NCBI GenBank assembly: GCA_028289605.1
Contig: JANQON010000009.1
Location: forward strand, 712,548-776,547
DNA: 64,000 nucleotides
Direction of reading: 5' to 3'
Origin: Hyphococcus sp.
GTDB taxonomy: Bacteria; Pseudomonadota; Alphaproteobacteria; Caulobacterales; Parvularculaceae
Part shown: positions 10,573 through 59,763 of the stretch, one piece after another
Layout of the letters: the number at the start of each line of letters is the position of its first letter
Position numbering within the stretch: the stretch's first letter is position 1
Made by a program: the position numbers and the translations under genes
Notes under the pieces: model-generated
Database searches by the model: none
Seen by the model: only the letters and a program-made list of their open reading frames with translations
What the model was told of the DNA's origin: nothing

Positions 10573-10608
10573 TCGGCAAGGCTCAATTGCAGCAGCGCGC
10601 AACAGACT

Positions 10609-11880
10609 TCACCAATTCCACATTGTGCCGTCTTCGAGGCGGGCGATGGGAAGCTGTTTCGGATCGTAAGGATGCTTCGCCGCTTCCTTTTCATCAATGT
10701 CGACGCCAAGACCCGGCGTGTCGCCGATGACAAGCGCGCCGTCATTGAACGCATAATCGGTGGAGAACACGGCGTCGGTTTCAGGCGTATGGCGCATATA
10801 TTCTTGAATGCCGAAATTCGGCGCCCAACTATCGAAGTGGAGGGCTGCAGACATCGTCACCGGCGAGAGATCAGTGGCGCCGTGGCAGCCGGTGCGCACC
10901 TGCCAGACGCTGGCGAAATCCGCGATGCGCTTCAGATGTGTAATCCCGCCGGCCCCGAGAACCGTCGCGCGAATAAAGTCGATGAGCTGGTGCTGGATAA
11001 GGTCCTTGCAATCCCAAATAGAATTGAAGATCTCGCCGACGGCGATGGGCGTCGTCGTATGTTCCCGAATTAGGCGAAATGCGTCCTGATTTTCCGCGGG
11101 AGTAGGATCCTCCATCCAGAAAAGCGAATATGGCTCCAGCGCCCTGCCGAGACGTCCGGCCTCAATCGGCGTAAGACGATGATGAACATCGTGCAAGAGA
11201 TGCACGTCGAACCCGAATTTTGCTCGCAGGGCTTCGAACAGCTTTGGCGCGTATTGAAGATAGGGCGCCGTCGCCCACAACGTTTCCCTTGGCAAAGCGG
11301 CGTCAGCAGGCTCGTAATACATCTTGTCGCGACCGACGCCGTAAGCGCCGCGCACGCCGGGAACGCCAGTCTGCGCACGCACCGCTTTGTAGCCAAGGTC
11401 GATATAGCGCGCGACTTCATCCGTCGTCTGCTCAATATCCCCGCCGTTCGCGTGGCCGTAAACCATTACGCTGTCTCGGCTGCGGCCGCCGAGCAGATCG
11501 ACGACCGGCGCGCCCAGCATTTTTCCCTTTATGTCCCAAAGAGCCATATCCACCGCGGCGACAGCGCGCATGGTCACCGGACCCCGGCGCCAATAGGCGC
11601 CGCGATACAGAAACTGCCAGATATCCTCAATTCGCCGTGCGTCCTTTCCGATCAGATTCGGAATGACATGGTTTTCAAGATAGGCGACCGGCGCAAGTTC
11701 CCGCCCATTGAGCGTAGCGTCTCCCAGACCATATATGCCGTCCGCGGTTGTGATTTTCAGCGTGACGAAATTCCTGCCGGGACAGGCGACAATCACCTTC
11801 GCGTCAACAATCGTTGCCGCATCTGCGGCGTTGTCCGAAAGCGGACGATTTTCGTTTTTTGACAGTCCCGAATCCGGCAT
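10609..11880 (-). CDS. manD: D-mannonate dehydratase, enolase superfamily (ManD/RspA type)
   Basis: About 423 residues, closely resembling the Caulobacter/Novosphingobium ManD enzymes over the whole length. Examples are [58 protein letters not shown] and the C-terminal [13 protein letters not shown]. Metal and active-site residues are seen in [27 protein letters not shown] and [13 protein letters not shown]. It dehydrates D-mannonate to 2-keto-3-deoxygluconate in the cytoplasm, the step after UxaC and fructuronate reductase. I chose ATG 11880 because GAGGG lies just upstream and it removes an atypical N-terminal extension; ATG 11904 and 11958 are in frame. It is divergent from the GntR gene, with the palindrome at 11970 between them. 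The presence of ManD rather than altronate dehydratase points to glucuronate. Confidence 0.93.
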
Positions 11881-11969
11881 TTCGCCCTCGTTAGAAAAGA
11901 CCATGTCGTGACGCGGCAAGGCGGAAACGGTTGACGAAAGCCGCTGAGTCTGGGACACATAACCTATCT

Positions 11970-11990
11970 GACCAATATTGGTCTGTCCAG
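11970..11990 (+). promoter_or_regulatory. Palindromic candidate operator between manD and the GntR gene
   Basis: GACCAATATTGGTC (11970-11983) is a perfect 14-bp palindrome. It overlaps ATTGGTCTGTCCAG (11977-11990), the sequence repeated at 6234. The site lies 90 bp upstream of manD and about 50 bp before the GntR start, the expected place for an autoregulating GntR protein controlling divergent catabolic genes. Its resemblance to TTGGT/ACCAA operators of UxuR/ExuR and related FadR-type regulators is from general knowledge. Binding is inferred. Confidence 0.6.
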
Positions 11991-12041
11991 AGAAACAGGC
12001 GAAGCGCGTTTTGGCGCGTTTTCCCGGGAAAGCTGAACACT

Positions 12042-12803
12042 ATGGCCGACGAACAGCGTCAATCCGGCAAAAGACTCTATGAAAAAGTGGCGGCTTCGCT
12101 GGCGGCGGACATCAAAAAAGGCAGCTACGATATCGGCGATCGCCTGCCTTCTGAGAGGGTTCTCGCATCGAAATTCGGGGTCAGCCGTCCCACCATGCGG
12201 GAAGCGGTGATCGCGCTGGAAGTCGACGGGTTGGTCGAGGTGCGCACCGGCTCAGGCGTATATGTGAAATCAACCAGTCCGGCGGGCGGCGCGCCGCACG
12301 CGGCGGATATGGGCATGTTCGAATTGCTCGAGGCGCGGCGCGCTTTTGAAAGCGAGGCGGCGGCGCTGGCGGCGGCGCGCATCACCGATGATGAGCTTTC
12401 GGCGCTGCGCGGCCTCGTTGAAGAAATGGCGGAAGAAAACAAGCGCGATGTCGAACTCTCCGAAGACGCCGACCGGCGTTTTCACATGGGCATCGCGGCG
12501 GCGACCGGAAACAGCGCCATCGTTCGTGCGATCGAAATGTTTTGGGACGCGCGCCAGTCGTCGCACCAGACGCAACATTTCCTCAAAAAAGTGCGCGCGG
12601 GCGGCGTTGCCCCGCGCATAGACGAGCATTCGAGAATTCTATTTGCGCTTGAGAAGCGCGACCCGGAAAAAGCGCGCAAGGCGATGATCGATCATCTTAC
12701 CGCTGTAATCGAAGCGGTTCTAGAAGCAACAGAGGTAGAAGCGCTCGAACGCACCCGCGCCGAAATTAAAAAACAGCGGCAGCTCTATCTAACGGGGGCG
12801 TAA
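12042..12803 (+). CDS. FadR-family (GntR) transcriptional regulator of the uronate locus
   Basis: A 253-residue protein with an N-terminal GntR winged helix (about 10-78), including LPSERVLASKFGVSRPTMREA and the wing EVRTGSGVYV. It is followed by an all-helical FCD ligand domain (about 88-235) with the metal/effector residues of the FadR subfamily (for example DRRFHMGIAAATGN). It resembles UxuR/ExuR-type regulators that respond to uronates such as fructuronate or mannonate. ATG 12042 is chosen because the domain begins immediately (GKRLYEKVAASLAADI) and GGGAAAG precedes it. The gene heads a ten-gene rightward operon and is divergent from manD. Self-regulation through the palindrome at 11970 and control of the sites at 6234, 6471 and 26664 is my inference. 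Confidence 0.92.
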   Translation: MADEQRQSGKRLYEKVAASLAADIKKGSYDIGDRLPSERVLASKFGVSRPTMREAVIALEVDGLVEVRTGSGVYVKSTSPAGGAPHAADMGMFELLEARRAFESEAAALAAARITDDELSALRGLVEEMAEENKRDVELSEDADRRFHMGIAAATGNSAIVRAIEMFWDARQSSHQTQHFLKKVRAGGVAPRIDEHSRILFALEKRDPEKARKAMIDHLTAVIEAVLEATEVEALERTRAEIKKQRQLYLTGA

Positions 12804-12811
12804 AAAGGTCG

Positions 12812-14224
12812 ATGGCGAAACTCGAACTTGACCCAGACCGGCTTTTTTCCCCGAATGAGGCGGAGCGCGCCGTTGCCAAGCGCCTTTATGCAGAAGTGCG
12901 CGACCTGCCAATCGTCAGTCCCCACGGTCACACGGATCCGCGTTGGTTCGCCGACAATGAGCCGTTCGATAACCCCGCCGATCTCCTCATTATTCCTGAT
13001 CATTACATCTTTCGCATGCTCTATTCGCAAGGCGTGCGGATGGAAGATTTGGGAGTGCCGACACAGGACGGCGCCGCAGTTGAAACAGATCCACGCAAAA
13101 TTTGGCGACATTTCGCGGAGCACTATCATCTTTTTCGCGGCACACCCTCGCGGATGTGGCTCGACTGGGTATTCTCGTCCGTCTTCGAACTAACTGATAG
13201 TCTCGAGGCTGGCACCGCTGATGCTTACTATGACCGCATCGACGCATGGCTTAAAGAGGACGCCTTTCGGCCTCGCGCGCTTTTCGACCGATTTGACATA
13301 GAAGTCATCGCCACCACGGAAAGCCCGCTCGACGACCTTCGCCACCACAAAAAAATTCGCGAGAGCGAATGGCTGGGCAATGTGATTACCGCCTACCGAC
13401 CGGATCCGGTTGTCGATCCGGACTTTGAGGGCTTTGCTGAAAACGTAGCCGCTTTGGGTGCGCTGACCGGCGAGAACGCGACCGACTGGCGGGGCTATCT
13501 CAACGCCCATCGCAAGCGCCGGGCCTTTTTCAAGACTATGGGGGCCACGTCCACCGACCACGGTCATCCTACGGCCGCAACCGCTAATCTCTCTGAAGCC
13601 GACGCAACAGCCCTTTTCGAAAAAGCGTTGGCGGGGCGCATCACACCGGAAGAAGCGGAAACATTCCGTGGACAAATGTTGCTTGAGATGGCGCGAATGA
13701 GTCTCGAGGACGGGCTCGTCATGCAAATTCACCCCGGCGCGTGGCGTAATCACAATAAGCCCCTTTTTGAGCGCTTCGGCCGAGATAAGGGCGCCGATAT
13801 CCCAAGGCAGACAGATTACGTCGCAGCGCTGAAACCCCTTCTCGACGCAGTCGGCAATGAACGCGATCTCACGGTCATACTCTTCACGCTGGACGAAACA
13901 AGCTATTCGCGTGAGCTTGCGCCGCTGGCGGGGCACTATCCCGCGCTTCGGCTCGGGCCGCCGTGGTGGTTCCATGACAGCCCCGAAGGAATGCGCCGCT
14001 TTCGAGAACAAGCAACGGAAACCGCGGGCTTTTACAATACCGTCGGCTTTAACGACGATACGCGCGCGTTCATGTCGATCCCGGCGCGCCACGATGTTGC
14101 GCGACGCATGGACTGTAATTTCCTGGCGCGGCTAGTCGCCGATCACCGTCTCCCTGAAGACGAAGCAAAAGAGGTTGCTGTCGATCTTGCCTACAATCTC
14201 GTCAAAAAAGCCTACAAGCTCTAG
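12812..14224 (+). CDS. uxaC: Uronate isomerase (glucuronate/galacturonate isomerase)
   Basis: A 470-residue UxaC of standard length. It converts D-glucuronate to D-fructuronate (and galacturonate to tagaturonate), the first cytoplasmic step after uptake. The N-terminal metal motif appears as SPHGHTDPRWFADNEPF and is followed by the conserved LLIIPDHYIFRML. Further family segments are VIATTESPLDDLRHH, VMQIHPGAWRNHN, and near the end ARRMDCNFLARLVADHRLPEDEA. It starts 8 bp after the regulator's stop with AAAAGG before the ATG and ends 2 bp before dctQ, so it is in the same operon. With ManD it gives two of the three steps from glucuronate to KDG. No fructuronate reductase (UxuB) is encoded in the window. 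Confidence 0.96.
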   Translation: MAKLELDPDRLFSPNEAERAVAKRLYAEVRDLPIVSPHGHTDPRWFADNEPFDNPADLLIIPDHYIFRMLYSQGVRMEDLGVPTQDGAAVETDPRKIWRHFAEHYHLFRGTPSRMWLDWVFSSVFELTDSLEAGTADAYYDRIDAWLKEDAFRPRALFDRFDIEVIATTESPLDDLRHHKKIRESEWLGNVITAYRPDPVVDPDFEGFAENVAALGALTGENATDWRGYLNAHRKRRAFFKTMGATSTDHGHPTAATANLSEADATALFEKALAGRITPEEAETFRGQMLLEMARMSLEDGLVMQIHPGAWRNHNKPLFERFGRDKGADIPRQTDYVAALKPLLDAVGNERDLTVILFTLDETSYSRELAPLAGHYPALRLGPPWWFHDSPEGMRRFREQATETAGFYNTVGFNDDTRAFMSIPARHDVARRMDCNFLARLVADHRLPEDEAKEVAVDLAYNLVKKAYKL

Positions 14225-14226
14225 TC

Positions 14227-14724
14227 ATGGGCGCCGCACTCGCCGCGATATCCCGCATGGTGAGCCTCATTGCGCTCTGGTTTTCCGGCGCCGGACTCAT
14301 CGTCATGACGGGGATCATTTTTTGGCAGGTCGTGTCGCGCTATGGCTTCAATGCGAGCCCGGCCTGGGCAGAGCAGTCGGCGCTGATCTTGATGATCTGG
14401 TTTGTGTTTTTCGCCGGCGCCGCGGGCGTTCGCGAAGGGTTTCACATCCGAATCGTCGCCGGCGTTAATGCGCTGCCTGTTGGCGTCGGCCGACCAGTTC
14501 GTGTTTTTTCAGATCTTGTGATTGCCGCTTTCGGTCTCGCGCTGGCGATCTGGGGCGGTGACTTGGTCCTGCGGACTTGGGATCACACGGTGCCCGCGCT
14601 CGGCATATCTCGGGGCCTCGCCTACTCCCCCGCCCCGATCAGCGGCGCGCTGATCTTTTTCTTCGCGCTCGAGCAGGCCTGGGCTTCAGCGGCCGGGCGA
14701 AAGGTCGATCCGCAATGGAGCTAG
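14227..14724 (+). CDS. dctQ: TRAP transporter small permease subunit DctQ
   Basis: A 165-residue membrane protein with four predicted helices, typical of DctQ. Family features are SALILMIWFVFFAGAAGVREGFHIRI in the second and third segments and the aromatic GIIFWQVVSRYGFNASPAWAEQ motif. It links the periplasmic binding protein to the large permease DctM. Its start follows uxaC by 2 bp, and its end overlaps the dctM start by 10 bp. Its partner DctP is encoded at 8066-9058 on the opposite strand, so the three-part transporter is split over two transcription units flanking the regulator. Confidence 0.92.
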   Translation: MGAALAAISRMVSLIALWFSGAGLIVMTGIIFWQVVSRYGFNASPAWAEQSALILMIWFVFFAGAAGVREGFHIRIVAGVNALPVGVGRPVRVFSDLVIAAFGLALAIWGGDLVLRTWDHTVPALGISRGLAYSPAPISGALIFFFALEQAWASAAGRKVDPQWS

Positions 14725-15992
14725 CGCTTCTTATCGGCCTTCTCGCCCTTTTTCTGGTTATCGGCGTGCCGGTGGCGTTCGCGCTCGGCGCGGCCTCGCT
14801 TGTCACTTTTATGGTCTTGGATATCCCGCCGGTCGTCGCCGTACAGCGCATGACTTCCGGCGTTAGCGTTTTTACGCTGATGGCGATCCCCTTTTTCATT
14901 TTCGCTGGCGATCTCATGTATCGGTCGGGCATTGCCGAACGTCTGGTGCGGGTCGCCGACGCCGCCTTCGGGCGCGCCCGCGGCGGACTTGGCCAGGTTG
15001 ATGTAGGCGCATCCATGATGTTCGGCGCCGTCTCCGGCTCCGCTGTCGCCAGCGCGTCGGCGGTTGGCTCTACGCTTGCGCCAATGATGCTCGAAAAGGG
15101 TTATGACCGGGATTACATCGTCAATGTCACCGCCACCGCGGCGATCACCGGCCTCCTGATTCCGCCGTCCCACAATATGATTATCTATGTCGCCGCCGCC
15201 GGCGAAGGCGTTTCGGTGGGCGAGCTGTTTCTCGCGGGCGTCATCCCCGGCCTGCTCACCGGCGCGCTCTTAATGATCGCCGCCTGGGGCGTCGCTGCCA
15301 AGCGCGGCTATCCGAGGGGCGTTTTTCCCGGCTGGGCGAAGTTCGCCCGCGCGGTCGCGCTAGCGTTGCCCGGTCTCATGACGGCAGTCATTATCGTTGT
15401 CGGCATTCTATCCGGCGTTTTCACGCCGACAGAGTCATCGGCGGTCGCCGTCGTCTACACGGTTCTGATTGCATTCTTTGTGTACAGATCATTAGGGGCG
15501 GACGGCTTTGTCAAAGCGGTTTCGGGCGCGGTGAAGACGACCTCAATGGTGATGCTGATCATCGGTTCCGCCGCTGCTTTCGGCTGGCTGTTGGCGCTGT
15601 TGGAAGGCCCCACTCAACTCGCCGATGCGCTGCTAGCCATCACCGATAATCCGATCCTGCTCTTTTTGCTCATTAACTTGATGCTGCTCTTGCTCGGCAC
15701 TTTTATGGATATGGCGCCGTTGATCATCATCACGACACCCATCTTCCTGCCTATTGCGACATCGCTGGGCATGGATCCAACGCAGTTTGGCATCGTCATG
15801 ATGCTTAACTTGGGGATCGGCCTGGTGACCCCGCCCGTCGGATCGGTTCTTTTCGTCGGCTGCGCTGTAGGCGGCCTGCGGATCGAAGAAACGGTGAAAA
15901 CAATCTGGCCGTTCTATCTCGCTCTCGTCGCCGCGTTGATGGCGATCACATTTGTCCCCGCCCTGTCGCTCACCTTGCCTGGATTGTTTTGA
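14715..15992 (+). CDS. dctM: TRAP transporter large permease subunit DctM
   Basis: A 425-residue, highly hydrophobic DctM protein of typical length, with about 12 helices. It begins MELALLIGLLALFLVIGVPV and shows the family signatures FIFAGDLMYRSGIAERLVR, MFGAVSGSAVASASAVGS, PPSHNMIIYVAAAGEGVSVG, GVFTPTESSAVAVVY and GLVTPPVGSVLFVGCAVG. It drives Na+-coupled uptake of organic acids, here probably uronates. The ATG at 14715 overlaps the end of dctQ; a longer reading from 14577 is rejected because it lies wholly in dctQ in another frame and adds an atypical leader. The next gene begins one base after its stop. Confidence 0.95.
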   Translation: MELALLIGLLALFLVIGVPVAFALGAASLVTFMVLDIPPVVAVQRMTSGVSVFTLMAIPFFIFAGDLMYRSGIAERLVRVADAAFGRARGGLGQVDVGASMMFGAVSGSAVASASAVGSTLAPMMLEKGYDRDYIVNVTATAAITGLLIPPSHNMIIYVAAAGEGVSVGELFLAGVIPGLLTGALLMIAAWGVAAKRGYPRGVFPGWAKFARAVALALPGLMTAVIIVVGILSGVFTPTESSAVAVVYTVLIAFFVYRSLGADGFVKAVSGAVKTTSMVMLIIGSAAAFGWLLALLEGPTQLADALLAITDNPILLFLLINLMLLLLGTFMDMAPLIIITTPIFLPIATSLGMDPTQFGIVMMLNLGIGLVTPPVGSVLFVGCAVGGLRIEETVKTIWPFYLALVAALMAITFVPALSLTLPGLF

Positions 15993-15993
15993 T

Positions 15994-17286
15994 ATGAAAG
16001 TCCTCTTTACCCTTGCTGCAGTCCTTTTCGCTGTCCCCGCAGCAGCAGCGGAGACATCGCGCGAGAAAAAAATCGAAGAAGCAATGCGACGCGGCGCCGA
16101 TTACGCGGCCGACATCCTGATTACACAGTCGGGTGCTGGACGTACGGAGTATGAACTCTTGCGCGGCGAATGGAACGACTATGAGACCCATTGGCATACG
16201 GCGCAAACCATCTACGGTCTTTTAGAGACTTGGCGTGTCACTGGAGAGCGACGGTATCTTCGCGCAGCGCGCCGCGGCGGCGACTGGTGGATATCAACGG
16301 AGTTCAAAGAACCGCACCCCTTCGCCGGCCTCGTAAATGCAGCCCATGGCGATCGTCTCGGTCATCTTATCAACATGACGACCATGACGGATGGTTCGAA
16401 TGGAATCTTCGCGCTCACGCGCGCGACGAATGATGACAAATACGCACAGAGCGCCGTACGGTCCGGCGATTGGTTTCTTGAGAACGCATACATTCCCGAG
16501 GAAGGCCTCTTCTACAATATTGCGGATCCAGAAACCGCGACGGTTTGGAAGGACAAGAGCCCGCATCATCCGGAGATTGGGCCTGCAGAGATTAAGGTCA
16601 CTGAAGTCGCGCGCCCTAATTCGGAAGGCTACGCCTATGCGGATATGTGCGCGTTTACCGGCGACCGACAGTATTGCGCCGTCTTTCTCGATGTCGCCGA
16701 TAAAAAGCTCAAACGCCAGTCCGAGGAAGGCGCATGGATGGATTTCGAACCGAACCGGATGTCCGACGGGCGCGTACATCCGCGGTTCAATATCTGGCTC
16801 GCAGAAGCGCAGCTTGAAGCCTATGAAATGACGGGCGACCGGAAATACCTGGAGAGCGCGCTGCAAACCGGTCGGTTAATGGCGAAACTGCAGAAAGCGG
16901 ACGGCGCCTTTTACCGTCACCTCTATCGTGACGGAACATCAAGCCCCGGCTCTTTTATCGGTTCCGCATCGGCGTTTTCAGGCATCCTATGGCTAAGGCT
17001 GCGCGACTACGGAGTCGGCGACGAGTTTGACGACAATATTGAACGCTCCGTTGACTGGTTGTTGAAGAACCAGGCGCTGGAGAGCCATCCAGACGAAAAT
17101 GTTCGCGGGTCGTTTCTCAATCTTTATGTACGTCGAAAAGACGGTCAGGCGCTTTTGTATCAACGCGACATCGGCACTGGTTTCGCTCTGCGATTTCTCG
17201 CGACCTATTTACGCGACCGGGCGGGGGAAGACGTGAACGTTGATTCTTTCAGCGGACGCGACGCCTATCCAGACATGAGCGAATGA
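15994..17286 (+). CDS. Secreted (alpha/alpha)6-toroid protein, possible uronyl hydrolase or related enzyme
   Basis: A 430-residue protein with a clear signal peptide (MKVLFTLAAVLFAVPAAAAE). The rest is a series of helical hairpins of the six-hairpin glycosidase type: ADYAADILI, HTAQTIYGLLETWRVTGERRYLRAA, GSNGIFALTRATNDDKYAQSA, AEAQLEAYEMTGDRKYLESA and FSGILWLRLRDYG. Such folds occur in GH88/GH105 unsaturated uronyl hydrolases, GH127-like enzymes and C5-epimerase-type proteins. I could not identify the GH88/GH105 catalytic aspartates with confidence, so the activity is left open. The start at 15994 follows the dctM stop by one base. The gene overlaps the sulfatase start by 4 bp, so it is co-translated with the sulfatase module. 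Action in the periplasm or at the surface on sulfated or unsaturated oligosaccharides is inferred. Confidence 0.7.
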   Translation: MKVLFTLAAVLFAVPAAAAETSREKKIEEAMRRGADYAADILITQSGAGRTEYELLRGEWNDYETHWHTAQTIYGLLETWRVTGERRYLRAARRGGDWWISTEFKEPHPFAGLVNAAHGDRLGHLINMTTMTDGSNGIFALTRATNDDKYAQSAVRSGDWFLENAYIPEEGLFYNIADPETATVWKDKSPHHPEIGPAEIKVTEVARPNSEGYAYADMCAFTGDRQYCAVFLDVADKKLKRQSEEGAWMDFEPNRMSDGRVHPRFNIWLAEAQLEAYEMTGDRKYLESALQTGRLMAKLQKADGAFYRHLYRDGTSSPGSFIGSASAFSGILWLRLRDYGVGDEFDDNIERSVDWLLKNQALESHPDENVRGSFLNLYVRRKDGQALLYQRDIGTGFALRFLATYLRDRAGEDVNVDSFSGRDAYPDMSE

Positions 17287-18860
17287 CCTGGCGCGACTCC
17301 GACATAAACGCAAAAAGGGACATGCAGATTGCGATCGCCATCGTTGCCCTGGCGACTATTTCCTGCACCCCGAATACGCAGGCCGCGCAACCCGATGAAA
17401 ACCCGCAGCCGCCGAACATTTTGATTGCGATCGCCGACGATCAGTCGTTCCCGCACGCTTCCGCCTATGGATCGAACTTTGTTTCAACACCCGCGTTCGA
17501 CCGCGTCGCGCGCGACGGGGCGCTCTTTACCCGAGCCTACGCCGCCTCTCCGGGATGCAGCCCAAGCCGAGCGGCGCTGCTTACCGGCCGCCATACCTGG
17601 ATGTTGGAGGCGGCGGGCACCCATGCAAGCGGCTTTCCTGCGAAATTTCAGACCATACCGGACGTATTGGCTGCGGCCGGCTATCAGGTCGGTTACACGG
17701 GCAAAGGATGGGCGCCCGGCGACTGGGAATCGACGCGCGCGCATAATCCGGCCGGCCCCGCCTACAACGCTATTCGTTTTGAAGAGGCGCCCGCCGGCGT
17801 TTCCTCTATCGACTATGCCGCAAACTTTGCCGCCTTTCTGAAACAACGCCCGGACGCCGCTCCGTTTTACTTCTGGTTCGGCGCATTGGAGCCGCACCGG
17901 CCCTACGACGACGGCGCCGGTCGCCGGGCGGAGAAGTCCATCTCAGATGATGAAATCCCGGGCTATCTGCCGACAACCGAAAAGGTCAAGAGCGACCTCC
18001 TAGACTACGCCGTCGAGATCGAGTGGTTCGACGCGCAGCTTGGCGAAATGCTCGATCAACTTGAGGCCGCAGGGGAACTCGACAACACGTTGATCATTGT
18101 CACCGCCGATAACGGTATGCCGTTTCCGCGGGCGAAAGCGAATGTCTATGACGCGGGGATCCACGTACCGCTTGCCGTGAGCTGGCCGGCGCAGGCGGCG
18201 GACGGCGGCGTCATCAATGATCTCGTCGGTTTCGTCGACATAACGGCAACGGTGTTCGACGCCGCCGGCGTAAAAGCCGACGGCCTGTCAGGGCGAAGCT
18301 TTCTTAGCCGTTTGCGCGGGCAAGGCGCGCCGGACGCCGACAAAGCCGTATATGCCGCCCGCGAACGCCACTCGTCAGCGCGTTGGAACAATCTCGGTTA
18401 TCCGCAACGCGCGATCCGCGTCGGCGACTATCTTTACATCCGCAACTTTGCTCCGGAACGTTGGCCCGCCGGGGCCCCGCGAAAATATGGAGATGGCGGC
18501 GCACTGGGCCCGCCTCATCGCGCCTATCACGACATCGATAGGGCGCCCGCTTTAATCGCCATGATCGACGCCAGATCAGCGCCCGGAACCGCGCCGCTGT
18601 TTAACGCCGCCGTCGGCGCTCGACCTGCCGAAGAACTCTATAACGCCGAGGCCGATCCGGCGAATCTGAAGAACCTCGCCGCCGATCCAGCCTATTTGGA
18701 GATCCGTGAAACTCTTTCAGCGCGACTGGAGTCTACACTTCAAAAAACCGGCGACCCGCGGATCGGCGGGAAAGGCGCCGTTTGGGACGCGTATCCTCGT
18801 CTGAAGGGGGCCATGCGGACATTCCCTCAACCCGAATGGGCGAAGGGGGCTCCGGAATGA
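17283..18860 (+). CDS. Type I (S1-family) sulfatase, predicted lipoprotein
   Basis: A 525-residue formylglycine-dependent sulfatase. The maturation motif is C92-S-P-S-R (GCSPSRAALLTGR), with the preceding metal-binding NILIAIADDQS (D52, D53). Later metal and active-site segments are FYFWFGALEPHRPY, LIIVTADNGMPFPR and the family's C-terminal EELYNAEADPANLKNLAADP. An N-terminal hydrophobic stretch ending ATISC (C28) is a lipobox-like signal. The ATG at 17283 overlaps the upstream stop (ATGA); an internal ATG at 17322 preceded by AAGGG is the alternative. It would remove sulfate esters from the glycan in the periplasm. Its stop overlaps the start of the formylglycine-generating enzyme gene, an expected partner because C92 must be oxidised to formylglycine. 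The sulfate position attacked is unknown. Confidence 0.93.
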   Translation: MTWRDSDINAKRDMQIAIAIVALATISCTPNTQAAQPDENPQPPNILIAIADDQSFPHASAYGSNFVSTPAFDRVARDGALFTRAYAASPGCSPSRAALLTGRHTWMLEAAGTHASGFPAKFQTIPDVLAAAGYQVGYTGKGWAPGDWESTRAHNPAGPAYNAIRFEEAPAGVSSIDYAANFAAFLKQRPDAAPFYFWFGALEPHRPYDDGAGRRAEKSISDDEIPGYLPTTEKVKSDLLDYAVEIEWFDAQLGEMLDQLEAAGELDNTLIIVTADNGMPFPRAKANVYDAGIHVPLAVSWPAQAADGGVINDLVGFVDITATVFDAAGVKADGLSGRSFLSRLRGQGAPDADKAVYAARERHSSARWNNLGYPQRAIRVGDYLYIRNFAPERWPAGAPRKYGDGGALGPPHRAYHDIDRAPALIAMIDARSAPGTAPLFNAAVGARPAEELYNAEADPANLKNLAADPAYLEIRETLSARLESTLQKTGDPRIGGKGAVWDAYPRLKGAMRTFPQPEWAKGAPE

Positions 18861-19726
18861 AGCGGTTTTTGATCATGTGCGCCATTCTTGCGCCTGTCTT
18901 GTTCGCTTGCGGCGGCAAGGACGACGGCCCTTCAACAAAAGGCGCAACCCCGCCATGCACGCCCACGCGCGGCGCCGTCGCCGTCGTTTTTCGAGACTCG
19001 ACCGGAGAAACCCGCCGACTTTCAGTCGACCGCACCGAAGTCACCAATGCGGAATTCGGCCGATTTGTTGACGAAACGGGCTACGTTACGCGAGCCGAGC
19101 GCGGCCTGCCGGAAGATACGTTCTCCTACCTGCCCGAAGAAGCGCGGCGGCCTGGATCCGCGGTCTTTACGCCGCCCGAAAAGCCCGGACCGATGGTCCT
19201 TTCACGCTGGTGGACTTTCGTTGAGGGCGCCAACTGGCGCCGTCCGGAAGGACCACACAGTTCGATAAGCGGTCTTGATCATCATCCGGTTGTTCATATC
19301 GCTTATGAAGACGCCGTTGCTTACGCCGGTTGGGCTGGACGCCGCCTGCCATCGGCGGTGGAGTGGGAGGCGGCGGCCGCCCCCGGAGCGCCGCCATTTC
19401 ATCCGGATTCGGATGACGCCAATATCTGGACCGGATTTTTTCCGATTAGCAACACGCGCGAAGATGGATACGCGCAGACAGCACCCGCTGGCTGTTATCC
19501 GCCCAATGAAAATGGGCTCTATGACGTCGTCGGTAATGTCTGGGAGTGGACGTCGACGCCTGGCGTCGGAGAGCCTACGGCCATGATCCTCAAAGGCGGC
19601 TCTTATGTCTGCGCCAGAAACTTTTGCGCGCGTTATCGCACCGACGCCGAGCAAGCGCAGGATCCCACTCTTGGCGCGTCTCATATCGGCTTTCGAACGG
19701 TCGCCGATATTGAAACGAAAGGATAA
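18857..19726 (+). CDS. Formylglycine-generating sulfatase-activating enzyme, predicted lipoprotein
   Basis: A 289-residue FGE/SUMF1-domain protein that oxidises the sulfatase cysteine to formylglycine. Fold signatures are RTEVTNAEFGRFVDETGY, LDHHPVVHIAYEDAVAYAGWAGRRLPSAVEWE and GLYDVVGNVWEWTS. The catalytic, copper-binding cysteine pair is conserved as C252 and C257 in GGSYVCARNFCARYR, so it looks active rather than a non-catalytic family member. The N-terminus MKRFLIMCAILAPVLFACGG is a lipoprotein signal with C18 as the lipidated residue. An exported FGE is notable because many bacterial versions act in the cytoplasm. The ATG at 18857 overlaps the sulfatase stop (ATGA), and this start gives the signal peptide directly. 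The enolase-superfamily gene follows after 4 bp. Confidence 0.92.
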   Translation: MKRFLIMCAILAPVLFACGGKDDGPSTKGATPPCTPTRGAVAVVFRDSTGETRRLSVDRTEVTNAEFGRFVDETGYVTRAERGLPEDTFSYLPEEARRPGSAVFTPPEKPGPMVLSRWWTFVEGANWRRPEGPHSSISGLDHHPVVHIAYEDAVAYAGWAGRRLPSAVEWEAAAAPGAPPFHPDSDDANIWTGFFPISNTREDGYAQTAPAGCYPPNENGLYDVVGNVWEWTSTPGVGEPTAMILKGGSYVCARNFCARYRTDAEQAQDPTLGASHIGFRTVADIETKG

Positions 19727-19730
19727 CGCT

Positions 19731-21014
19731 ATGCGCGAGGCGAGCCCGAACCGACGCGGTCTCTTAACCGCCGCCGTCCTGGCGCCGATTGTCGCTGCCG
19801 CTGGCGCTCCGGCAGCACATGCAACTGAAAAAACGCCTGAAGGTACGAGAGCGCTACGCAAAGACCTTGAACAGGCGCGCCTTTCGCCCGTGTTGAAGCG
19901 AGCGCTCTTTCCTGACCCTGTGATCATAGAGACTCTAGAGCTCCTGCATGACGGTGCGGTCTATTACATCCGCGTGCGATCGAGAGACGGCGCTGAGGGC
20001 TTTGCCATGACGAACCGCCGCCTTGCCCCCCTCGCAAAGCCAATCATGTTAAAGCGTTCGCTGCCCTATATGAAAGGCAAAGACGCGCGCGATCTCGACG
20101 CCCTTGTCGACGGCGTCTTTGCGCGTGGACTAAACTACAAACACCAGGGAATCACCTTTTGGACGGCCGTGTCCTGGGTGGAATTCGCTATCCTTGACAT
20201 GCTTGGAAACATTGCCGGCCTGCCCGTCGGCGCGTTGATCGGCGACCGCACGCTCAACCGCACGCATATCTACTACGCCAGCGGCAATCGCGGCAACGCA
20301 CCGGAAGCAGAAGTCGCCCTGCTCCAAAGCCTTATCGCAAAGTCCGGCGCAAAAGCGGTGAAGTTCAAACTCGGAGACCGGCTTGACTATAGTGACGCGT
20401 CAAACGCGCGCGACGAAGCGCTTATACCGATGGCGCGCCACGCGCTTGGCGATAAAACCGCCTTGTTTGTTGACGCGAATAGTTCGTTTGACGTATCGCG
20501 CGCGATCGAAACCGGGCGCATGCTCAGCGCGCATGGCTACGATTTTTTCGAGGAACCTGTGCGTTTCGACGATTTTGACGGCACCAAAGCGGTTGCCGAC
20601 GCTGTCGATTTGCCCATCGCGGGCGGCGAACAAGAAACGAGCCATTTTCGGTATCGCTGGTTGATCGAAAACGACGCCGTACAAATCGTACAGCCGGATG
20701 TCCTGTTGGGCGGCGGTTATGTTCGCGCAACCCGCATTGCGCGCATGGCGGCGGTCGCGGGCAAACCGATCGTCCCACACATTTCTGGCTGGGGGCTAGG
20801 CTTCCTCCATATTCTCCACTTTGCATCAGCAACGCCGAATATCGGTCCGTATCAGGAGTTTAAAGGGGACAAAGACGGGATCCCTTACGAGGTCATAGGG
20901 TCTGGCGCGCCCTTGCAGGTCGCGAACGGCGCCGTCGACATACCAACCGGCCCCGGGCTCGGTATCCGATTCGACCCGGATTACGTGAGGGCATTGAAGC
21001 AGGTTGAAGTTTAG
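19731..21014 (+). CDS. Tat-exported enolase-superfamily (mandelate racemase-like) enzyme
   Basis: A 427-residue protein of the mandelate racemase/muconate-lactonizing group. The catalytic set is present: a K-x-K motif in AVKFKLGDR, metal ligands D (LFVDANSSF), E (YDFFEEPV) and E (IAGGEQET), and the general base histidine in VPHISGWGLG. This arrangement suits sugar-acid dehydratases or racemases. The unusual part is the N-terminus, MREASPNRRGLLTAAVLAP to AAHAT, a twin-arginine signal with an AHA cleavage site; most family members are cytoplasmic. The start at 19731 follows the FGE gene by 4 bp. It may act on a released acidic sugar in the periplasm. The substrate is unknown, and it is distinct from ManD in the same locus. 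Confidence 0.85.
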   Translation: MREASPNRRGLLTAAVLAPIVAAAGAPAAHATEKTPEGTRALRKDLEQARLSPVLKRALFPDPVIIETLELLHDGAVYYIRVRSRDGAEGFAMTNRRLAPLAKPIMLKRSLPYMKGKDARDLDALVDGVFARGLNYKHQGITFWTAVSWVEFAILDMLGNIAGLPVGALIGDRTLNRTHIYYASGNRGNAPEAEVALLQSLIAKSGAKAVKFKLGDRLDYSDASNARDEALIPMARHALGDKTALFVDANSSFDVSRAIETGRMLSAHGYDFFEEPVRFDDFDGTKAVADAVDLPIAGGEQETSHFRYRWLIENDAVQIVQPDVLLGGGYVRATRIARMAAVAGKPIVPHISGWGLGFLHILHFASATPNIGPYQEFKGDKDGIPYEVIGSGAPLQVANGAVDIPTGPGLGIRFDPDYVRALKQVEV

Positions 21015-21064: not shown

Positions 21065-21967
21065 TTGTCCGAGTATTATTGTCATGCCGTACATGGGGAT
21101 GATTGCGCCGCGCTCATACAGGCGTCTCCGTTGATCAGCGAGAACACAAAGCGTGTAGCGCGGGAATATGGAATGCTGATGCGCATGGGGTCCGTCTTGC
21201 GCGCAGGCGGTACGCTTGTTTCGCCGGCGCTAACAGCAATTCGCAACAGCGGCGCCGGCGTCAATCCGCGCATCGCCGACCGCAGGCTGGCGATCGCCTT
21301 CTCACAGCTTTCTCACCGCGCAGCGGACGGGTATTTTAAACCAGTCTATCGTGAATTGACCCCGGAATACTACGAGAACGATTTCGCAGCCACGCCCAGC
21401 GACATCCGAATCATGCATGACATTGCAGTCTATCATGCGCGTAAAAACATGAAACTTGCCGACGGCGATCCAAAGTACGACGCACTGATATTTCAACATA
21501 TCGTTCCGTTGAGCGACGACCAATCTCCCGCCGATGCGCGGTTTCTGGAAACAGTCTTCGGTGGGCGCGTCATTCAGGAGTTGTTGGGTCTACATGATCT
21601 CTTTCCCAAAAACGCAGACACCATTCAAAAGCTCAAAGCGTACATAATGGCGCTGGATCCCATTTACATTGACACGGTGCGCTACGCCGACATGGCGGCG
21701 CAGCCCTTCATCAATCATGTTCAGCGTTACATCATCGAGCCAAACTTTTACGATCCCGACGATCCGTTTATCTCGCTCGCCGTAGACATCCAGAATGGAT
21801 CGACGCCGGATCGCGCACGACTAGCCGCCGCCAAGGCGGCTGATCCGCAAGGCCTGTCGCAATGGGGCGCGACGCTGGCGCTGGGTGTGCGTTATTACGA
21901 GGCCGCGCAAGCCTATATGGATGGCGACATCGACCTCGGCGCGTTTGAGGAGATTGCACTGTCATGA
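21065..21967 (+). CDS. Protein of unknown function, penultimate gene of the operon
   Basis: A 300-residue protein I do not recognise. It starts at TTG 21065, which is well supported by AGGGAG seven bases upstream (next frame-matched ATG is far inside). No signal peptide or membrane segment is evident. It looks mainly helical and is rich in H, Y and D: YYCHAVHGDDC near the start, LSHRAADGYFKPVYRELTPEYYE, RIMHDIAVYHARKN, FINHVQRYIIEPNFYDPDD and a C-terminal ALGVRYYEAAQAYMDGDIDLG. The repeated His-containing helices could bind metal, but no known signature is visible. It overlaps the next gene by 4 bp (ATGA), so the two are almost certainly made together. Its place after sulfatase, FGE and a dehydratase-like enzyme suggests a role in the same glycan pathway; nothing more is supported. 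Confidence 0.8.
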   Translation: MSEYYCHAVHGDDCAALIQASPLISENTKRVAREYGMLMRMGSVLRAGGTLVSPALTAIRNSGAGVNPRIADRRLAIAFSQLSHRAADGYFKPVYRELTPEYYENDFAATPSDIRIMHDIAVYHARKNMKLADGDPKYDALIFQHIVPLSDDQSPADARFLETVFGGRVIQELLGLHDLFPKNADTIQKLKAYIMALDPIYIDTVRYADMAAQPFINHVQRYIIEPNFYDPDDPFISLAVDIQNGSTPDRARLAAAKAADPQGLSQWGATLALGVRYYEAAQAYMDGDIDLGAFEEIALS

Positions 21968-22974
21968 GGAATACGCCAATTGCAAAACCCGCCAGCGCCT
22001 TTTTTCAACGGCGCGAATTCCTCGCGCTTTTGACGGCAAGCGCTTTGGCGCCAAACTTTTCTTTTGCGACGCAGACGATCGTAAGGGGCGCTGATGCGCC
22101 GTCGCTCGCCAGAGCCGCCGTCATTCATGACGCGTTGCTTCTCCTTATCAGCGACGATGACGTCACAGGCGAATGGCGCGACATGCTTGCGCCCTTGCCA
22201 AGCGGCAAAGCGTGGGAATTTTCCTATGCTTACGGCGCTGCCAGTCTCGGCCACGATTCCCAATTAGCGTTGGATGTTGTCGCCGACGTCCAACAAGGCT
22301 GGTCCACTCGCAAACCGGCGTTTCTCGATCTGCAACGATACAAAGGCGGAATGATGGAGCGAAGCCTGCACGTTGCCCTTGGCTGGGCGGCGAATCGGGC
22401 CGCTGAGTCGATTCTGTTTGCCGATACGGCGGATCTGACGGACTCTGCCTTGATCGTCGACGGCGTATTTCTCCGGGCCATATCGGGCATGACCCGCGTT
22501 CGGAAAGCCCACGCGAAGCGTATTTTCCGCATTCTCTACGAACGCGCCTTTATCATGATGCATACGCTGGAACCCGATCTTGACGGTCCGGGCGGGCTCG
22601 ATATCGCCGCGATGCATGAAGTGAAGAATCCCGATCAGCAACACATCAATAGGTTCATCGATGCGTATGCTGACTGGGTGGAGAGTATCGACGGCGAATG
22701 CGACAGGCTCGCGGAAGCCATGGCCGCCGCCCCGCCCCGACGCTTTCCGTCAGGCGCGAAATTCTATGATCGGAACGATCCAATAATCCGAACCGTCGAC
22801 ATGATACGCCAGGGTCTTGGCAACGCCCAAAAACCTGGCCGTTGGTTCAACCAAGTTGGGGAAAGTCGATACGCAATGGCGGTTTCAAGAGCATATCGCG
22901 GCGCCCGCTTTGTGCTTGAAGCGGCGCGGGGCGACCGCCCGGCGTCGGACGTCAATTTCATCGTTGCAGATTAG
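21964..22974 (+). CDS. Exported protein of unknown function, last gene of the operon
   Basis: A 336-residue protein with no recognised family. The N-terminus, FFQRREFLALLTASALAPNFSFA, is a twin-arginine-like export signal ending near SFATQT. The mature part is probably all-helical. Segments that may be useful for profile searches are AWEFSYAYGAASLGHDSQ, WSTRKPAFLDLQRYKGGMMERSLHVALGWAANRAAE, KRIFRILYERAFIMMHTLEPDLDG and GRWFNQVGESRYAMAVSRAYRG. Its start overlaps the preceding unknown gene by 4 bp; 56 bp separate it from the convergent lyase gene. The pairing of a non-exported and an exported unknown protein at the end of a sulfatase operon is a good candidate for an undescribed glycan-processing step. 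Confidence 0.82.
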   Translation: MRNTPIAKPASAFFQRREFLALLTASALAPNFSFATQTIVRGADAPSLARAAVIHDALLLLISDDDVTGEWRDMLAPLPSGKAWEFSYAYGAASLGHDSQLALDVVADVQQGWSTRKPAFLDLQRYKGGMMERSLHVALGWAANRAAESILFADTADLTDSALIVDGVFLRAISGMTRVRKAHAKRIFRILYERAFIMMHTLEPDLDGPGGLDIAAMHEVKNPDQQHINRFIDAYADWVESIDGECDRLAEAMAAAPPRRFPSGAKFYDRNDPIIRTVDMIRQGLGNAQKPGRWFNQVGESRYAMAVSRAYRGARFVLEAARGDRPASDVNFIVAD

Positions 22975-23030: not shown

Positions 23031-25283
23031 CTATCGTTGCAACGCGAACGCTCTCGCGGCAAGATCGAAGCGAACTGATCCGAAATCGCCAAGCTGCAGC
23101 GATAGTGTTCCTGCTTGCGCATCTTGTTGAATGACCTTGACCGGCGCCGCGGCAGGGGCCGCGCCCTTCTCTGTCGTGATGATCCAGGCGAAGATGACGT
23201 TGCCGGCAACGTTGGTTTCATACACCGCCAAGGGCGCGGCGATTTGCTGATTATAGAACGGACTGTACCAGCCCCGGAACGGGTCCTCTTGACCTTTCAC
23301 AAGTTCCGCCTGCGCGTCATTGAGACCGATGAGTTGCAAACGAATATTGGCGACGCCCTCATCCGCGCTTGACACGTCGAGGCCGTCCATCGACGCGCCG
23401 ACCTCTGGGTGAAAGTGCCAGTGACTGGTCAATGAGCGCGGGCGGTCGGTTTCCATCCAGTCGACAACTACCCAGCCAAAATCGTTGATGTAGGCGACCG
23501 AACGATGATGGAGTGCTTCGCCTTCAAGACTTTCATAGCCATTGTCGAAGGCGCCGAAGCCTACGGTGTACGTGTCCGTGATCATGGCGTGCGACGGATC
23601 CATCGGCTCGGCGAACTCGAGCGCGTCGGGGTTTTGCTGCTTGCCGTCGACCAAGATCAGGTTCGCGCCGCGCGTAGACCGGACGTAATTCGTCATCGGC
23701 ACGTCTTTGTAGATATAACGCCCGGTATCGACAATGAGGTCGCGCCCGCCGCTCGCCATGGCGAATTGCAGAATGTCATTATGCTGGTGGGAAATGCCCC
23801 AGGGACCGAACTCAAAGATGCTCCAGTCGGCGTCCGCGTCCCAACCGGATCGTGCGAAGAGCTGCCCCGACCAGGGCCAGAAACGAGACGGTCCGGTCGC
23901 CGGTTCAATACCCTCACCGCCGTTGGTGGCGATGTAGCGCCATTCGTCATTGTCGAAGAGGTCGGCAAGACGCATCACGATTGGGCGCACAAAGTCTCTA
24001 TCGGCATTATTATTGAGAGGGATGGCGCCGTCAGGCCGCATCGACCAAGCCATGAACTCACCCATGCTTTCGATCCGGTCTTCGAACGCTGCCGGCGGCT
24101 GATAACCTGAAGCGCGCATGAACTCGACATATTGTTTAAAGTAATCAAGAACAGTGCGGTGGTAGTGCGATGAGAGTTCTTTCTGGACCCCGTCGGGATA
24201 GATTTGGAAGTCCAATTCTTCGACGAGGACAGTGAGAGCGTACTCACGCCAGACGGCGGCGTCTTTAAACTCCGGCCAGGCGGCGGCGGCATGGGAAAGG
24301 CCAATCATCTCCTTGATCGCATGGTTGTGTTTGCGACGGTGGTATTTCTTCGTATGGATTGCTTGATCATAGACAGCCGACAGCATCATCAGCCGCGCCG
24401 CATCGGAGAAAGCCGTTTCATCCTGAAGGTAGTAAAAAACTTGCGGCCATGATTGCAACAATCGCGTCGCCGTCGACATCGGTCTCCAAACGCCGGGAAA
24501 CTCTTTATCATTCTCCGCATCCGGAGGGATCGGGTTAGACGTTACGAAATCGAGGATTGCGGCGTCGATGTAGGCCGCGAGCGCCGGATCACCGGTAACT
24601 TCATACTGCTTTAAAAGCGGCAGAAAGTGGAAGTGGCGATTGAGAAAAACCTCCCACTGAAAGTCACCTTTGGGGCCGCGATCCAACCAGTCGATGCGGC
24701 CGTTTGGGAGGCGCCTTACTTCGGCCTTCACCGACTGAAAGGTGTAAATATCTGCGAGGGTTTCTTGCGCAAGGGGACCGAAATCGTCGTAGCCGCCTGG
24801 ATCGTGCACGCCGGTTCGGCCCTTTAGCCACGAACCGTTGTCGGTGGTTCGGTAGTAGGCTGCTATCGCCTCCATGGCCGCAGGCGCATCGCCGACGTCA
24901 GCAGCCGCCTTAGCACGCTCAAAGCCTGGGTGATCGAGGTTTAAGCGTTCAAGGAGACGTTTTGCTTTGTCCGGAAAAGCATCGGCAAACTCGCGCGCCG
25001 TGACAATGTCCGGCGTGGGGCTGAGCTCGCGAGGGTCGGGGCCATAATCAGTGTAGCTAAAAACGTCACGGGACACGCCGTATGGGCGCTCGTCGGGACG
25101 TAAACCTTCGAGCGATGCACGGATCTTGGCAATGCGATCCGTAGAGACGTCCAGCGTGTCTACGTGGGCTTGCGATGTTGCAGCGGCCTCGTCAGGGTCG
25201 CCGCTGCTTTCCGGTTCCTCACTGCCGCACGCGCCAACAAGAAAGAGGAGAGCCGCAACCCGGACCGGCGAAACCATATGCAT
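23031..25283 (-). CDS. Heparinase II/III-family polysaccharide lyase-like lipoprotein
   Basis: A protein of about 750 residues. A long helical (alpha/alpha) domain (about 60-430) is followed by a beta-sandwich with the heparinase II/III C-terminal signature: FEFGPWGISHQHNDILQFAMASGGRDLIVDTGRYIY. The helical part has HFHFLPLLKQYEVTGDPALA, KYHRRKHNHAIKEMIGLS and SHYHRTVLDYFKQYV, where catalytic Asn, His and Tyr residues of such lyases usually lie. Family members cleave uronic-acid linkages by beta-elimination (heparin, alginate, ulvan or other uronans). The specificity is not readable. I chose ATG 25283 because GGAGG stands five bases upstream and it gives a lipoprotein signal, MHMVSPVRVAALLFLVGAC (C19). 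It lies 52 bp downstream of the CapA-like gene in the same orientation. Confidence 0.87.
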   Translation of the reverse strand: MHMVSPVRVAALLFLVGACGSEEPESSGDPDEAAATSQAHVDTLDVSTDRIAKIRASLEGLRPDERPYGVSRDVFSYTDYGPDPRELSPTPDIVTAREFADAFPDKAKRLLERLNLDHPGFERAKAAADVGDAPAAMEAIAAYYRTTDNGSWLKGRTGVHDPGGYDDFGPLAQETLADIYTFQSVKAEVRRLPNGRIDWLDRGPKGDFQWEVFLNRHFHFLPLLKQYEVTGDPALAAYIDAAILDFVTSNPIPPDAENDKEFPGVWRPMSTATRLLQSWPQVFYYLQDETAFSDAARLMMLSAVYDQAIHTKKYHRRKHNHAIKEMIGLSHAAAAWPEFKDAAVWREYALTVLVEELDFQIYPDGVQKELSSHYHRTVLDYFKQYVEFMRASGYQPPAAFEDRIESMGEFMAWSMRPDGAIPLNNNADRDFVRPIVMRLADLFDNDEWRYIATNGGEGIEPATGPSRFWPWSGQLFARSGWDADADWSIFEFGPWGISHQHNDILQFAMASGGRDLIVDTGRYIYKDVPMTNYVRSTRGANLILVDGKQQNPDALEFAEPMDPSHAMITDTYTVGFGAFDNGYESLEGEALHHRSVAYINDFGWVVVDWMETDRPRSLTSHWHFHPEVGASMDGLDVSSADEGVANIRLQLIGLNDAQAELVKGQEDPFRGWYSPFYNQQIAAPLAVYETNVAGNVIFAWIITTEKGAAPAAAPVKVIQQDAQAGTLSLQLGDFGSVRFDLAARAFALQR

Positions 25284-25335
25284 CAATGCCTCCATCAATT
25301 CCCGGCCGCACACAGCGCCGCGGCAGCAGCGTCGG

Positions 25336-26619
25336 TCACGGTGCGCTGCCGACGCCATCGATAACGACGTAATCGTCGGCCCAGGAAAACGGGTTGCCGG
25401 CATCGGCGGCGCGGGCGCGCAGGTGCATGTCATACATGACGTAACGTCCCACCGGACTGCCGGGCTTGTAGATTCGGAGTTGGTCATCGCCCCAAACGTC
25501 TCGCCAGATCGGTGCGAATTCCGCTCCCGTGACGCCGTTCTTGTTCGCTTTGATACGGACAAGAATGCCTTCAGGATAACGCTGAGATCTATTTCCGCTG
25601 ACGGGCCGCCAATTGCGGCGGTCGTCGAACAGGCCTTGTCCAGAATCATAAATGATTGGTTTGCCATTATAGATCTCCACCGGCTTCATACGATGGGAGC
25701 CATGGCCAAACACGACATCCGCGCCTGCATCGATGCAGAGCCGAGCGATATCATCTTCATACCCGACAATTTCATTGGCGTCCGACAGTCCCCAATGGAA
25801 CGATACGATTTGAAGGTCTGTCTTTTTTGCGAGCGCTTTGATATCGGCGCGAAGCGCTTCGCCGGACGGCGGATGGATATTGAGGACATTGTCAAGCGGC
25901 CGCCCTGGTTTGCGCGCCAAATTTGACACTTTAAACGCGGTGTCCACGCGAATAGGCGCGACGCCGGGACTGTCTTCGCCAGCGACGTGATCATGCAAGT
26001 CATACAGCGCTGTATACTGAAGGATTCCCACGCGAACACCATCGCGCTTTAATATGACCGGTTTACGCGCAGCGGCCATATCCTTGCCGCCGCCGGTTGT
26101 TGCAATCCCAGCCTTGTCAAGCACACTCAGGCTGCGCAGCAGGGCCGCCGGGGGCGCGGAGACGTTGTTCGCGACGCCAACCGCGTCGAAGCCGGCGGCA
26201 ACCAACCCCTCGACCTGGTCGGGATTGGAATGGCGCCAATCCTTATTGCGAATGTCGCTTTTGCGCGGATCGTCGGTTCCCCCGGCAAAAGGCCCTTCAA
26301 GATTGGCGAAGGCGACATCTGCAGCCTTCAGGGTCGGGATCAATGCGCCAAAAGCCGCGCCCGGATTGTCACGATAAGAGATGTTGGTGTCGCCGAGCAG
26401 GAGAATATCGATCTCACCCTCAGCCTTTTCAGACCATTGCCAGGCCTTTCCTGCTTCGCCCACTCCCTGCAAAACATATTGGGAAGACGGTTCGCCAGTC
26501 GGTTCCATGCTGTCTGTGTTTTCGGGCCAGAAAAATGGCGCCTCCTGCTGCGCGTCCGCGGGAAACGCCATCAAGGAAAATGCCGCGATTACCGCTGCCG
26601 ACGCATTCCGCCTCAGCAT
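25336..26619 (-). CDS. CapA-family (PGA_cap) metallophosphatase-like secreted protein
   Basis: A 427-residue protein with a signal peptide (MLRRNASAAVIAAFSLMAFPADAQ). It carries CapA/YwtB-family segments: DILLLGDTNIS, KAADVAFANLEGPFAGG, GFDAVGVANNVS (family form often ANNH), VGILQYTALYDL, LQIVSFHWGLS and ADVVFGHGSHRMKPVEIYNGKPIIYDSGQGLFD. These mark the calcineurin-like metallophosphatase fold of CapA. The family was named from polyglutamate capsule synthesis, but many members stand in glycan loci with unknown roles. Here it precedes the lyase and is probably co-transcribed with it. A TTGGTCTCCAA sequence 45 bp upstream may be a GntR site. Role in the pathway is unknown. Confidence 0.85.
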   Translation of the reverse strand: MLRRNASAAVIAAFSLMAFPADAQQEAPFFWPENTDSMEPTGEPSSQYVLQGVGEAGKAWQWSEKAEGEIDILLLGDTNISYRDNPGAAFGALIPTLKAADVAFANLEGPFAGGTDDPRKSDIRNKDWRHSNPDQVEGLVAAGFDAVGVANNVSAPPAALLRSLSVLDKAGIATTGGGKDMAAARKPVILKRDGVRVGILQYTALYDLHDHVAGEDSPGVAPIRVDTAFKVSNLARKPGRPLDNVLNIHPPSGEALRADIKALAKKTDLQIVSFHWGLSDANEIVGYEDDIARLCIDAGADVVFGHGSHRMKPVEIYNGKPIIYDSGQGLFDDRRNWRPVSGNRSQRYPEGILVRIKANKNGVTGAEFAPIWRDVWGDDQLRIYKPGSPVGRYVMYDMHLRARAADAGNPFSWADDYVVIDGVGSAP

Positions 26620-37660: not shown

Positions 37661-37835
37661 GGATCCGTCTCCCACCCCAAAAAAAGCGACCATCGTCTGC
37701 GGACAATGGTGTGCATGCTGTTCCACAGTGCTGATACGCGCAGTTGCGCTCAATGGTGGATTCACACCATTCGCGTTGACGCGGTTCACTTTACGTAAGT
37801 CTCGTGTCAGTTTGCCGATGCTCGGCAATTAGGGG

Positions 37836-50018: not shown

Positions 50019-50025
50019 TGCCGCC

Positions 50026-53686: not shown

Positions 53687-53690
53687 GTCC

Positions 53691-54608: not shown

Positions 54609-54609
54609 A

Positions 54610-55990: not shown

Positions 55991-56000
55991 CCGCTCGTGC

Positions 56001-59752: not shown

Positions 59753-59763
59753 TCTAACCTCCG

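Follow-up and report, generated by a model that had tools for sequence, protein, structure and literature searches.

Gene organization and paralogy of the A-B pair

This analysis concerns two adjacent genes, here designated A and B, in a 64,000-nucleotide stretch of contig JANQON010000009.1 of Hyphococcus sp.; this whole stretch is referred to below as the window. Gene A (21065..21967, + strand) encodes a 300-residue protein without a signal peptide, apparently a remote relative of the PF00882 family, and gene B (21964..22974, + strand) encodes a 336-residue paralogue of A that carries a twin-arginine (QRREFL) signal and has lost the H-x3-D-x3-K motif of A. The two frames overlap by 4 bp in the tetranucleotide ATGA, which holds both the stop of A and the start of B. 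The TTG start of A is preceded by GGGAGA and is backed by its relatives, since 114 of the 124 aligned A proteins open with [M/V/L]SE. A and B are the last two of a ten-gene operon on the + strand, in the order GntR regulator, UxaC, DctQ, DctM, GH88-like protein, sulfatase, formylglycine-generating enzyme (FGE), Tat-signal enolase-superfamily enzyme (hereafter MRexp), A and B, and all gaps in this run are of at most 8 bases or are overlaps, with the exception of 50 bases before A. Promoter and terminator scans gave results not above those for shuffled sequences. Neither gene is a chance open reading frame (ORF): at E ≤ 1, A had 17 database matches including its own copy (best other E 1.2e-174) and B had 20 including its own copy (best other E 1.3e-113). 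The ORF positions and the ATGA thus confirm the initial annotation in its two overlapping frames at the end of an operon, and its description of B as Tat-like is supported by the QRREFL stretch and a hydrophobic run at the N-terminus.

The relationship between the two proteins was settled by profile comparison, where BLASTP fell short: a plain BLASTP alignment of A with B was weak (E 0.04) and not convincing alone. A first profile-profile comparison gave E 4e-8, and a comparison of 124 A rows with 24 B rows reached a probability of 99.3 and E 3.2e-20 over 250 columns, versus E 0.11 for a control with B reversed. In addition, the A profile found the neighbouring B in the Hyphococcus genome itself (7.4e-6) and in genomes G440 (2.2e-6), G441 (4.9e-12), G442 (2.6e-6), G443 (5.2e-6), G556 (1.3e-17) and G568 (1.7e-7). 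Judged by these profiles, A and B are paralogues, which the initial annotation had not noticed. P0002, which duplicates the window protein in shortened form, was not included in alignment A5, and the B alignment contains 23 distinct proteins, the window protein being present twice and the B proteins of loci L024 and L025 not being included.

Family assignment and predicted fold

In searches against Pfam and NCBIfam, A matched nothing at E ≤ 1, and B matched nothing at this threshold but DUF6641 (E 0.26, 11.7 bits where 27 are required). A profile built from nine A sequences retrieved 127 matches, of which 120 were listed and the other seven were not aligned; among the matches listed, most relatives had no name at all and every relative named by its source was called 'hypothetical protein'. 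The pair therefore deserves the term undescribed that it had been given. The accompanying statement that it matches no known family holds for curated families only, as a second look at the predicted models with VIA-align placed both A and B closest to the phospholipase C/P1-nuclease fold. Thus, on the evidence of these models, A and B appear to be remote branches of this fold, which comprises zinc phospholipases and nucleases, in addition to being paralogues of each other.

Other searches for the fold returned little. Foldseek found nothing at E ≤ 0.001 for the A and B models against the PDB, and when PDB sequences were searched with individual proteins or with profiles, nothing came up at E ≤ 0.05, the best match being 6eff (E 0.053, query A1), with no row for B or A2. 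PF00882 was matched weakly by 51 of the 124 A rows (best E 0.0017). The window A gave no match to PF00882 at E ≤ 1 or E ≤ 10 and did not reach the curated cut-off, nor did the window B, whose single match was the DUF6641 one. As a PF00882 search of the Hyphococcus genome also found no member of this family, the A-B pair has not arisen there as a close duplicate of a canonical gene. Membership of A or B in PF00882 is not claimed, as the sequences neither match the family profile nor contain its H-x3-D-x3-H motif. An unspecific peroxygenase, suggested by a deep A profile over the HD...RE stretch, was rejected for its E-values (0.13-0.58); no peroxidase family was present among the Pfam matches listed (25 of 40), and no column reached 85% Cys.

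A putative metal site

In this superfamily, to which the S1/P1 nucleases belong together with phospholipase C (PMC4144908), the zinc ligands are described as the free N-terminus and His and Asp side chains (PMC5201275). For S1/P1-type nucleases, nine zinc-binding residues are given, namely one Trp, three Asp and five His (PMC4144908), the Trp being the N-terminal one in S1 (PMC4144908, PMC5201275). In A, H84, D88 and K92 are kept in 123/123 rows with letters at these positions, and D119 in 124/124. The motif H-x3-D-x3-K formed by the first three, present in all 123 rows, aligns with the PF00882 motif H-x3-D-x3-H (taken from 24 proteins) in such a way that K92 falls on the next His; A therefore does not contain the full zinc motif, Lys standing in place of the third-position His.

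A His stands at residue 7 in each of the 114 rows that begin with [MVL]SE, while the remaining 10 of the 124 begin inside or upstream of [M/V/L]SE. Since Met removal is expected before Ser as a general rule, excision in A would place His7 at mature position 6. The pattern [YFWH]-x3-[ST]-H, with its His at position 6, stands right after the apparent end of the signal peptide in 24 of 32 PF00882 frames, these 24 having been picked from the 32 by that same motif and the end of the signal peptide having been judged by eye. A defined N-terminus with a His at predicted mature position 6 is thus common to A and PF00882, and because the His falls at position 6 in both, A appears, as far as its sequence tells, to make the same N-terminus as PF00882 proteins without a signal peptide. 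The N-terminal Trp ligand of the S1/P1 nucleases (PF02265) is absent from A, which opens with [M/V/L]-Ser-Glu.

Other positions are less uniform. Asp49, in an SGD motif, occurs in 81 A rows and in none of the 14 rows of the window clade, and H118 is replaced by Gln in 8 of these 14 rows, the window A not being among them. In the A-B alignment, B lacks H84, D88 and K92 and keeps two aspartates, D56 (D13 in A) and D166 (D119 in A).

Export

The distribution of signals over the pair is one-sided. Two adjacent arginines lie near the start in 22 of the 23 distinct B proteins, the exception being without its N-terminus. A hydrophobic N-terminal stretch, defined as 13 residues over 1.6 within the first 40, was found in 17/24 B rows versus 0/124 A rows. 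Untagged subunits that leave with a Tat-tagged partner are described for NiFe hydrogenases and formate dehydrogenases (PMC10924467), and an FAD glucose dehydrogenase with a hitchhiker protein is also described (PMC6719666). The A-B pair shares with such complexes a twin-arginine signal on one subunit only, and on the basis of these N-termini it is likely that A leaves the cell with B by means of the Tat signal of B.

Distribution and conserved linkage to glycan genes

The A/B family is rare, scattered and unnamed, and is present in at least three phyla. With the A profile, matches were found in one of 385 genomes of the class of the window (the Hyphococcus genome itself), in one of 147 of the order of G440 (G440), in one of 114 of the order of G441 (G441) and in one of 297 of the phylum of G443 (G443). 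The family of G443, Bryobacteraceae, yielded five of 237 genomes, in one of which just a B remnant is left. In the phylum of G441, two of 345 genomes matched, G441 clearly and the second weakly and partially; this second match (L078, genome G1532, E 1.7e-5) covers positions 70-129 of the A profile and may be a canonical PF00882-like protein. B as query matched one of 60 genomes, again its own. No match was found in a plasmid collection with the window A, nor in a phage collection with the A of locus L004.

For 8 of 13 close A relatives, a B match came from a contig of identical length, taken as a proxy for its being the same one, and a contig scan provided four loci for comparison, L002 from Woeseiaceae, L003 from Bacteroidetes, and L004 and L005 from Bryobacteraceae (L005 in genome G443). 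B directly follows A in all seven distinct loci with a full A (the window, L002, L003, L004, L005, L024 and L025), which represent three phyla. The 4-bp overlap recurs in six of them, that of L024 according to tblastn coordinates, and in L003 the two genes are separated by 39 bases.

In the Bacteroidetes locus L003, A and B are 31% and 24% identical to those of the window, and the pair is surrounded by homologues of five uronate or glycan genes of the window: GH2 (47% identity), UxaC (56%), the GH88-like protein (43%) and two GH28 proteins (42% and 38%). Among the Bryobacteraceae loci, L004 and L024 share the order MRexp, sensor, response regulator, outer-membrane receptor, A and B, with the end of a GH78 rhamnosidase matched beside MRexp in L024; L025 has receptor, A and B, and in L026 MRexp lies beside a B remnant, with GH78 also present. 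In L005, fused GH78 and receptor remnants precede A-B; no MRexp match occurs within its 20.8 kb, and a 44% homologue of the L004 MRexp lies about 15 kb beyond B on the same contig. An outer-membrane receptor gene or its remnant thus precedes A in four Bryobacteraceae loci. At L005 9208-9975, the start of GH78 is joined to the end of the receptor gene, and at L026 5299-10080 the sensor gene runs into the B remnant; L005 and L026 seem to be two different deletions of one ancestral cluster. In the Woeseiaceae locus L002, an enolase-superfamily gene lies upstream with one ORF between, being merely 27% identical to MRexp. No intact CAZyme gene was seen next to A-B in L005 or L025, where no family scan was made, and glycan genes may be missed in L002, L005, L024, L025 and L026, as not every gene there was family-scanned.

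Co-occurrence with MRexp was also counted. The close MRexp group, defined by at least 68% identity to the L004 protein (a cut chosen once identities were seen to drop from 68 to 48%), was present in 4 of the 5 genomes that have A or B versus 15 of the 145 that have neither (Fisher one-sided p 8.8e-4, uncorrected for kinship and assuming one shared draw of 150 genomes). In G556, A-B and MRexp are on different contigs, and none of the nine fetched MRexp loci, including L075 from G556, contained an A or B match.

Taken as a whole, these neighbourhoods sustain one part of the initial annotation and not another. The linkage to glycan genes is conserved in distant genomes, by the five shared homologues in L003 and by MRexp in two Bryobacteraceae clusters, and we infer that A and B perform a glycan-processing step. 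The proposed association with the sulfatase and FGE is not conserved, since tblastn with the two window proteins gave no match at E ≤ 1e-4 in L002-L005.

Surrounding genes in the window

MRexp (19731..21014, +) belongs to the MR_MLE enolase superfamily. It is preceded by the FGE gene (18857..19726, +) and a sulfatase with a CSPSR motif (17283..18860, +). The FGE has a C-x4-C pair, the spacing of the FGE active site, and because it starts with a lipoprotein-like signal (FACGG), this sulfatase activator may itself be exported, to judge from its sequence. The exported GH88-like protein (15994..17286, +), with only partial matches to GH88, GH127 and C5-epimerase, is a further undescribed member of the locus, its homologue lying beside A-B in L003. 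Upstream are the TRAP permeases DctM (large, 14715..15992, +) and DctQ (small, 14227..14724, +), both judged by eye, the glucuronate isomerase UxaC (12812..14224, +) and a GntR/FCD regulator (11931..12803, +).

Outside the operon lie a D-mannonate dehydratase, ManD (10609..11958, -), above its NCBIfam cut-off; a GH28 protein (9055..10602, -), the one with the 38% homologue in L003; the TRAP solute-binding protein DctP (8066..9223, -); the second GH28 protein (6583..8052, +), whose nearest NCBIfam model is an alpha-D-galacturonidase (314.6 bits against a cut-off of 800); a TonB-dependent receptor (3089..6157, -); and a GH2 beta-glucuronidase-like protein (1110..2888, -), 3.4 bits short of its cut-off (540.6 against 544). 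A heparinase II/III-like polysaccharide lyase (23031..25667, -) is convergent with the operon. The combination of UxaC, ManD and a GH2 resembling beta-glucuronidase suggests glucuronate-containing glycans as substrates, to which the GH28 proteins add galacturonate; one of these two comes closest to an alpha-galacturonidase model but stays well short of its cut-off. GH28, beta-glucuronidase-like GH2, UxaC, ManD, a TonB receptor and a TRAP transporter are also found in rhamnogalacturonan and glucuronate utilisation loci.

Further downstream, 25336-26619 (-) encodes a PGA_cap metallophosphatase-like exported protein that matches NCBIfam solely in a lasso-peptide epimerase model, at 67 bits where the cut-off is 700. 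A 3298-residue open frame with many repeats and, by eye, an autotransporter-like end occupies 27932-37828 (-), and 48951-62792 (-) is likely a run of NiFe hydrogenase and maturation genes, its translations having been judged by eye.

Possible function of the A-B pair

Our tentative first choice, which may well need revision, is that A and B form a paralogous heterodimer with a predicted phospholipase C/P1-nuclease fold, exported by the Tat signal of B and acting on uronate glycans outside the cell. This reading starts from what the sequences provide, namely the A-B homology, the gene order, the signal on B and not on A, the conserved residues and the glycan neighbourhood, and from these we infer the complex, the methionine excision and metal, the co-export, the substrate and the reaction. 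A would be the catalytic subunit. Methionine excision would expose Ser1 and set the conserved His at mature position 6, in the register of PF00882, where it could form a reduced metal site with H84 and D88, the next canonical ligand His being replaced by the invariant Lys92. As this N-terminus would arise in the cytoplasm, folding and metal loading of A would also take place there, and A would then exit as a folded passenger of B along the Tat 'hitchhiker' route. B, having lost H84, D88 and K92, would serve as carrier and substrate-shaping subunit. As a guess, the pair may attack a uronate residue by hydrolysis or by beta-elimination, a step that would come ahead of TRAP import and the UxaC/ManD pathway.

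Such a pair would resemble several known systems and differ from each of them. A is like PF00882 proteins in its predicted fold, H-x3-D, predicted mature His6 and the weak profile matches of its members, but the window proteins fall short of that family, and A has the Lys in its motif, no signal peptide of its own and a paralogous partner without the motif. S1/P1 nucleases (PF02265; S1, TBN1 and AtBFN2) rank with the top VIA-align matches for the A model and the B model, whereas A starts with Met-Ser and retains just part of their zinc residues. Known Tat hitchhiker complexes likewise combine a subunit bearing the twin-arginine signal with a partner lacking one; these are redox proteins whose subunits are not known to be paralogous, while A and B are paralogous and their co-export is predicted from sequence.

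The lack of any N-terminal signal in A, in all 124 rows, could also mean that the two proteins form no complex, with A a cytoplasmic enzyme acting on imported uronate oligosaccharides and B alone outside, and the presence of UxaC and ManD, parts of a cytoplasmic pathway, would suit this arrangement. We consider it unlikely, as the unbroken adjacency in 7/7 loci, the 4-bp overlap in six and the paralogy are typical of heteromers, although they are no proof, and the receptor gene or remnant before A in four Bryobacteraceae loci points outward. That receptor, which directly adjoins the pair in L004, L024 and L025, leads to a different possibility, in which A-B is non-catalytic and serves to bind, anchor or assemble a partner, be it the receptor, the exported enolase-superfamily enzyme or a glycan. 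The Lys in place of a PF00882 ligand His in every A row with a letter, the loss of Asp49 in the window clade and the absence of H-x3-D from B all speak for such a role; the invariance or near invariance of H7, H84, D88, K92 and D119 over 124 A rows would be expected of an active site rather than of a scaffold, and we regard a non-catalytic pair as improbable.

Finally, the fold and the resemblance to PF00882 would fit a retained ancestral phosphodiesterase or phospholipase activity for scavenging of lipids or phosphorylated glycans, with the uronate neighbourhood being incidental. This seems very unlikely, as the metal ligands are changed relative to PF00882 and the pair recurs beside uronate genes (the window and L003) and a rhamnosidase match (L024).

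The extracellular uronate-active heterodimer can be put in a bolder form, which as a whole is rather unlikely: A-B may be the first glycan-active branch of the superfamily, a pseudosymmetric heterodimer of a live and a degenerate subunit, with a metal site re-cut from His to Lys and an N-terminal metal ligand made by methionine excision in the cytoplasm in place of signal-peptide cleavage, the metal-loaded subunit being carried by Tat on its own paralogue and the pair cleaving uronate linkages. To our knowledge, the phospholipase C/P1-nuclease fold is known only for phosphodiester cleavage, in lipids and nucleic acids. In a literature search, no paper came up that connects zinc-dependent phospholipase C to polysaccharide utilisation, nor one that connects it to both Tat and polysaccharide, and a full-text search found none linking rhamnogalacturonan or glucuronate loci to a phospholipase C-like pair. 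If the proposed function is correct, a phosphodiester-cleaving fold would have been recruited for acidic glycans, a Tat passenger and its carrier would be paralogues, and 124 aligned uncharacterised proteins from at least three phyla would have a fold and a partner assigned to them, along with a role in uronate degradation that can be tested.
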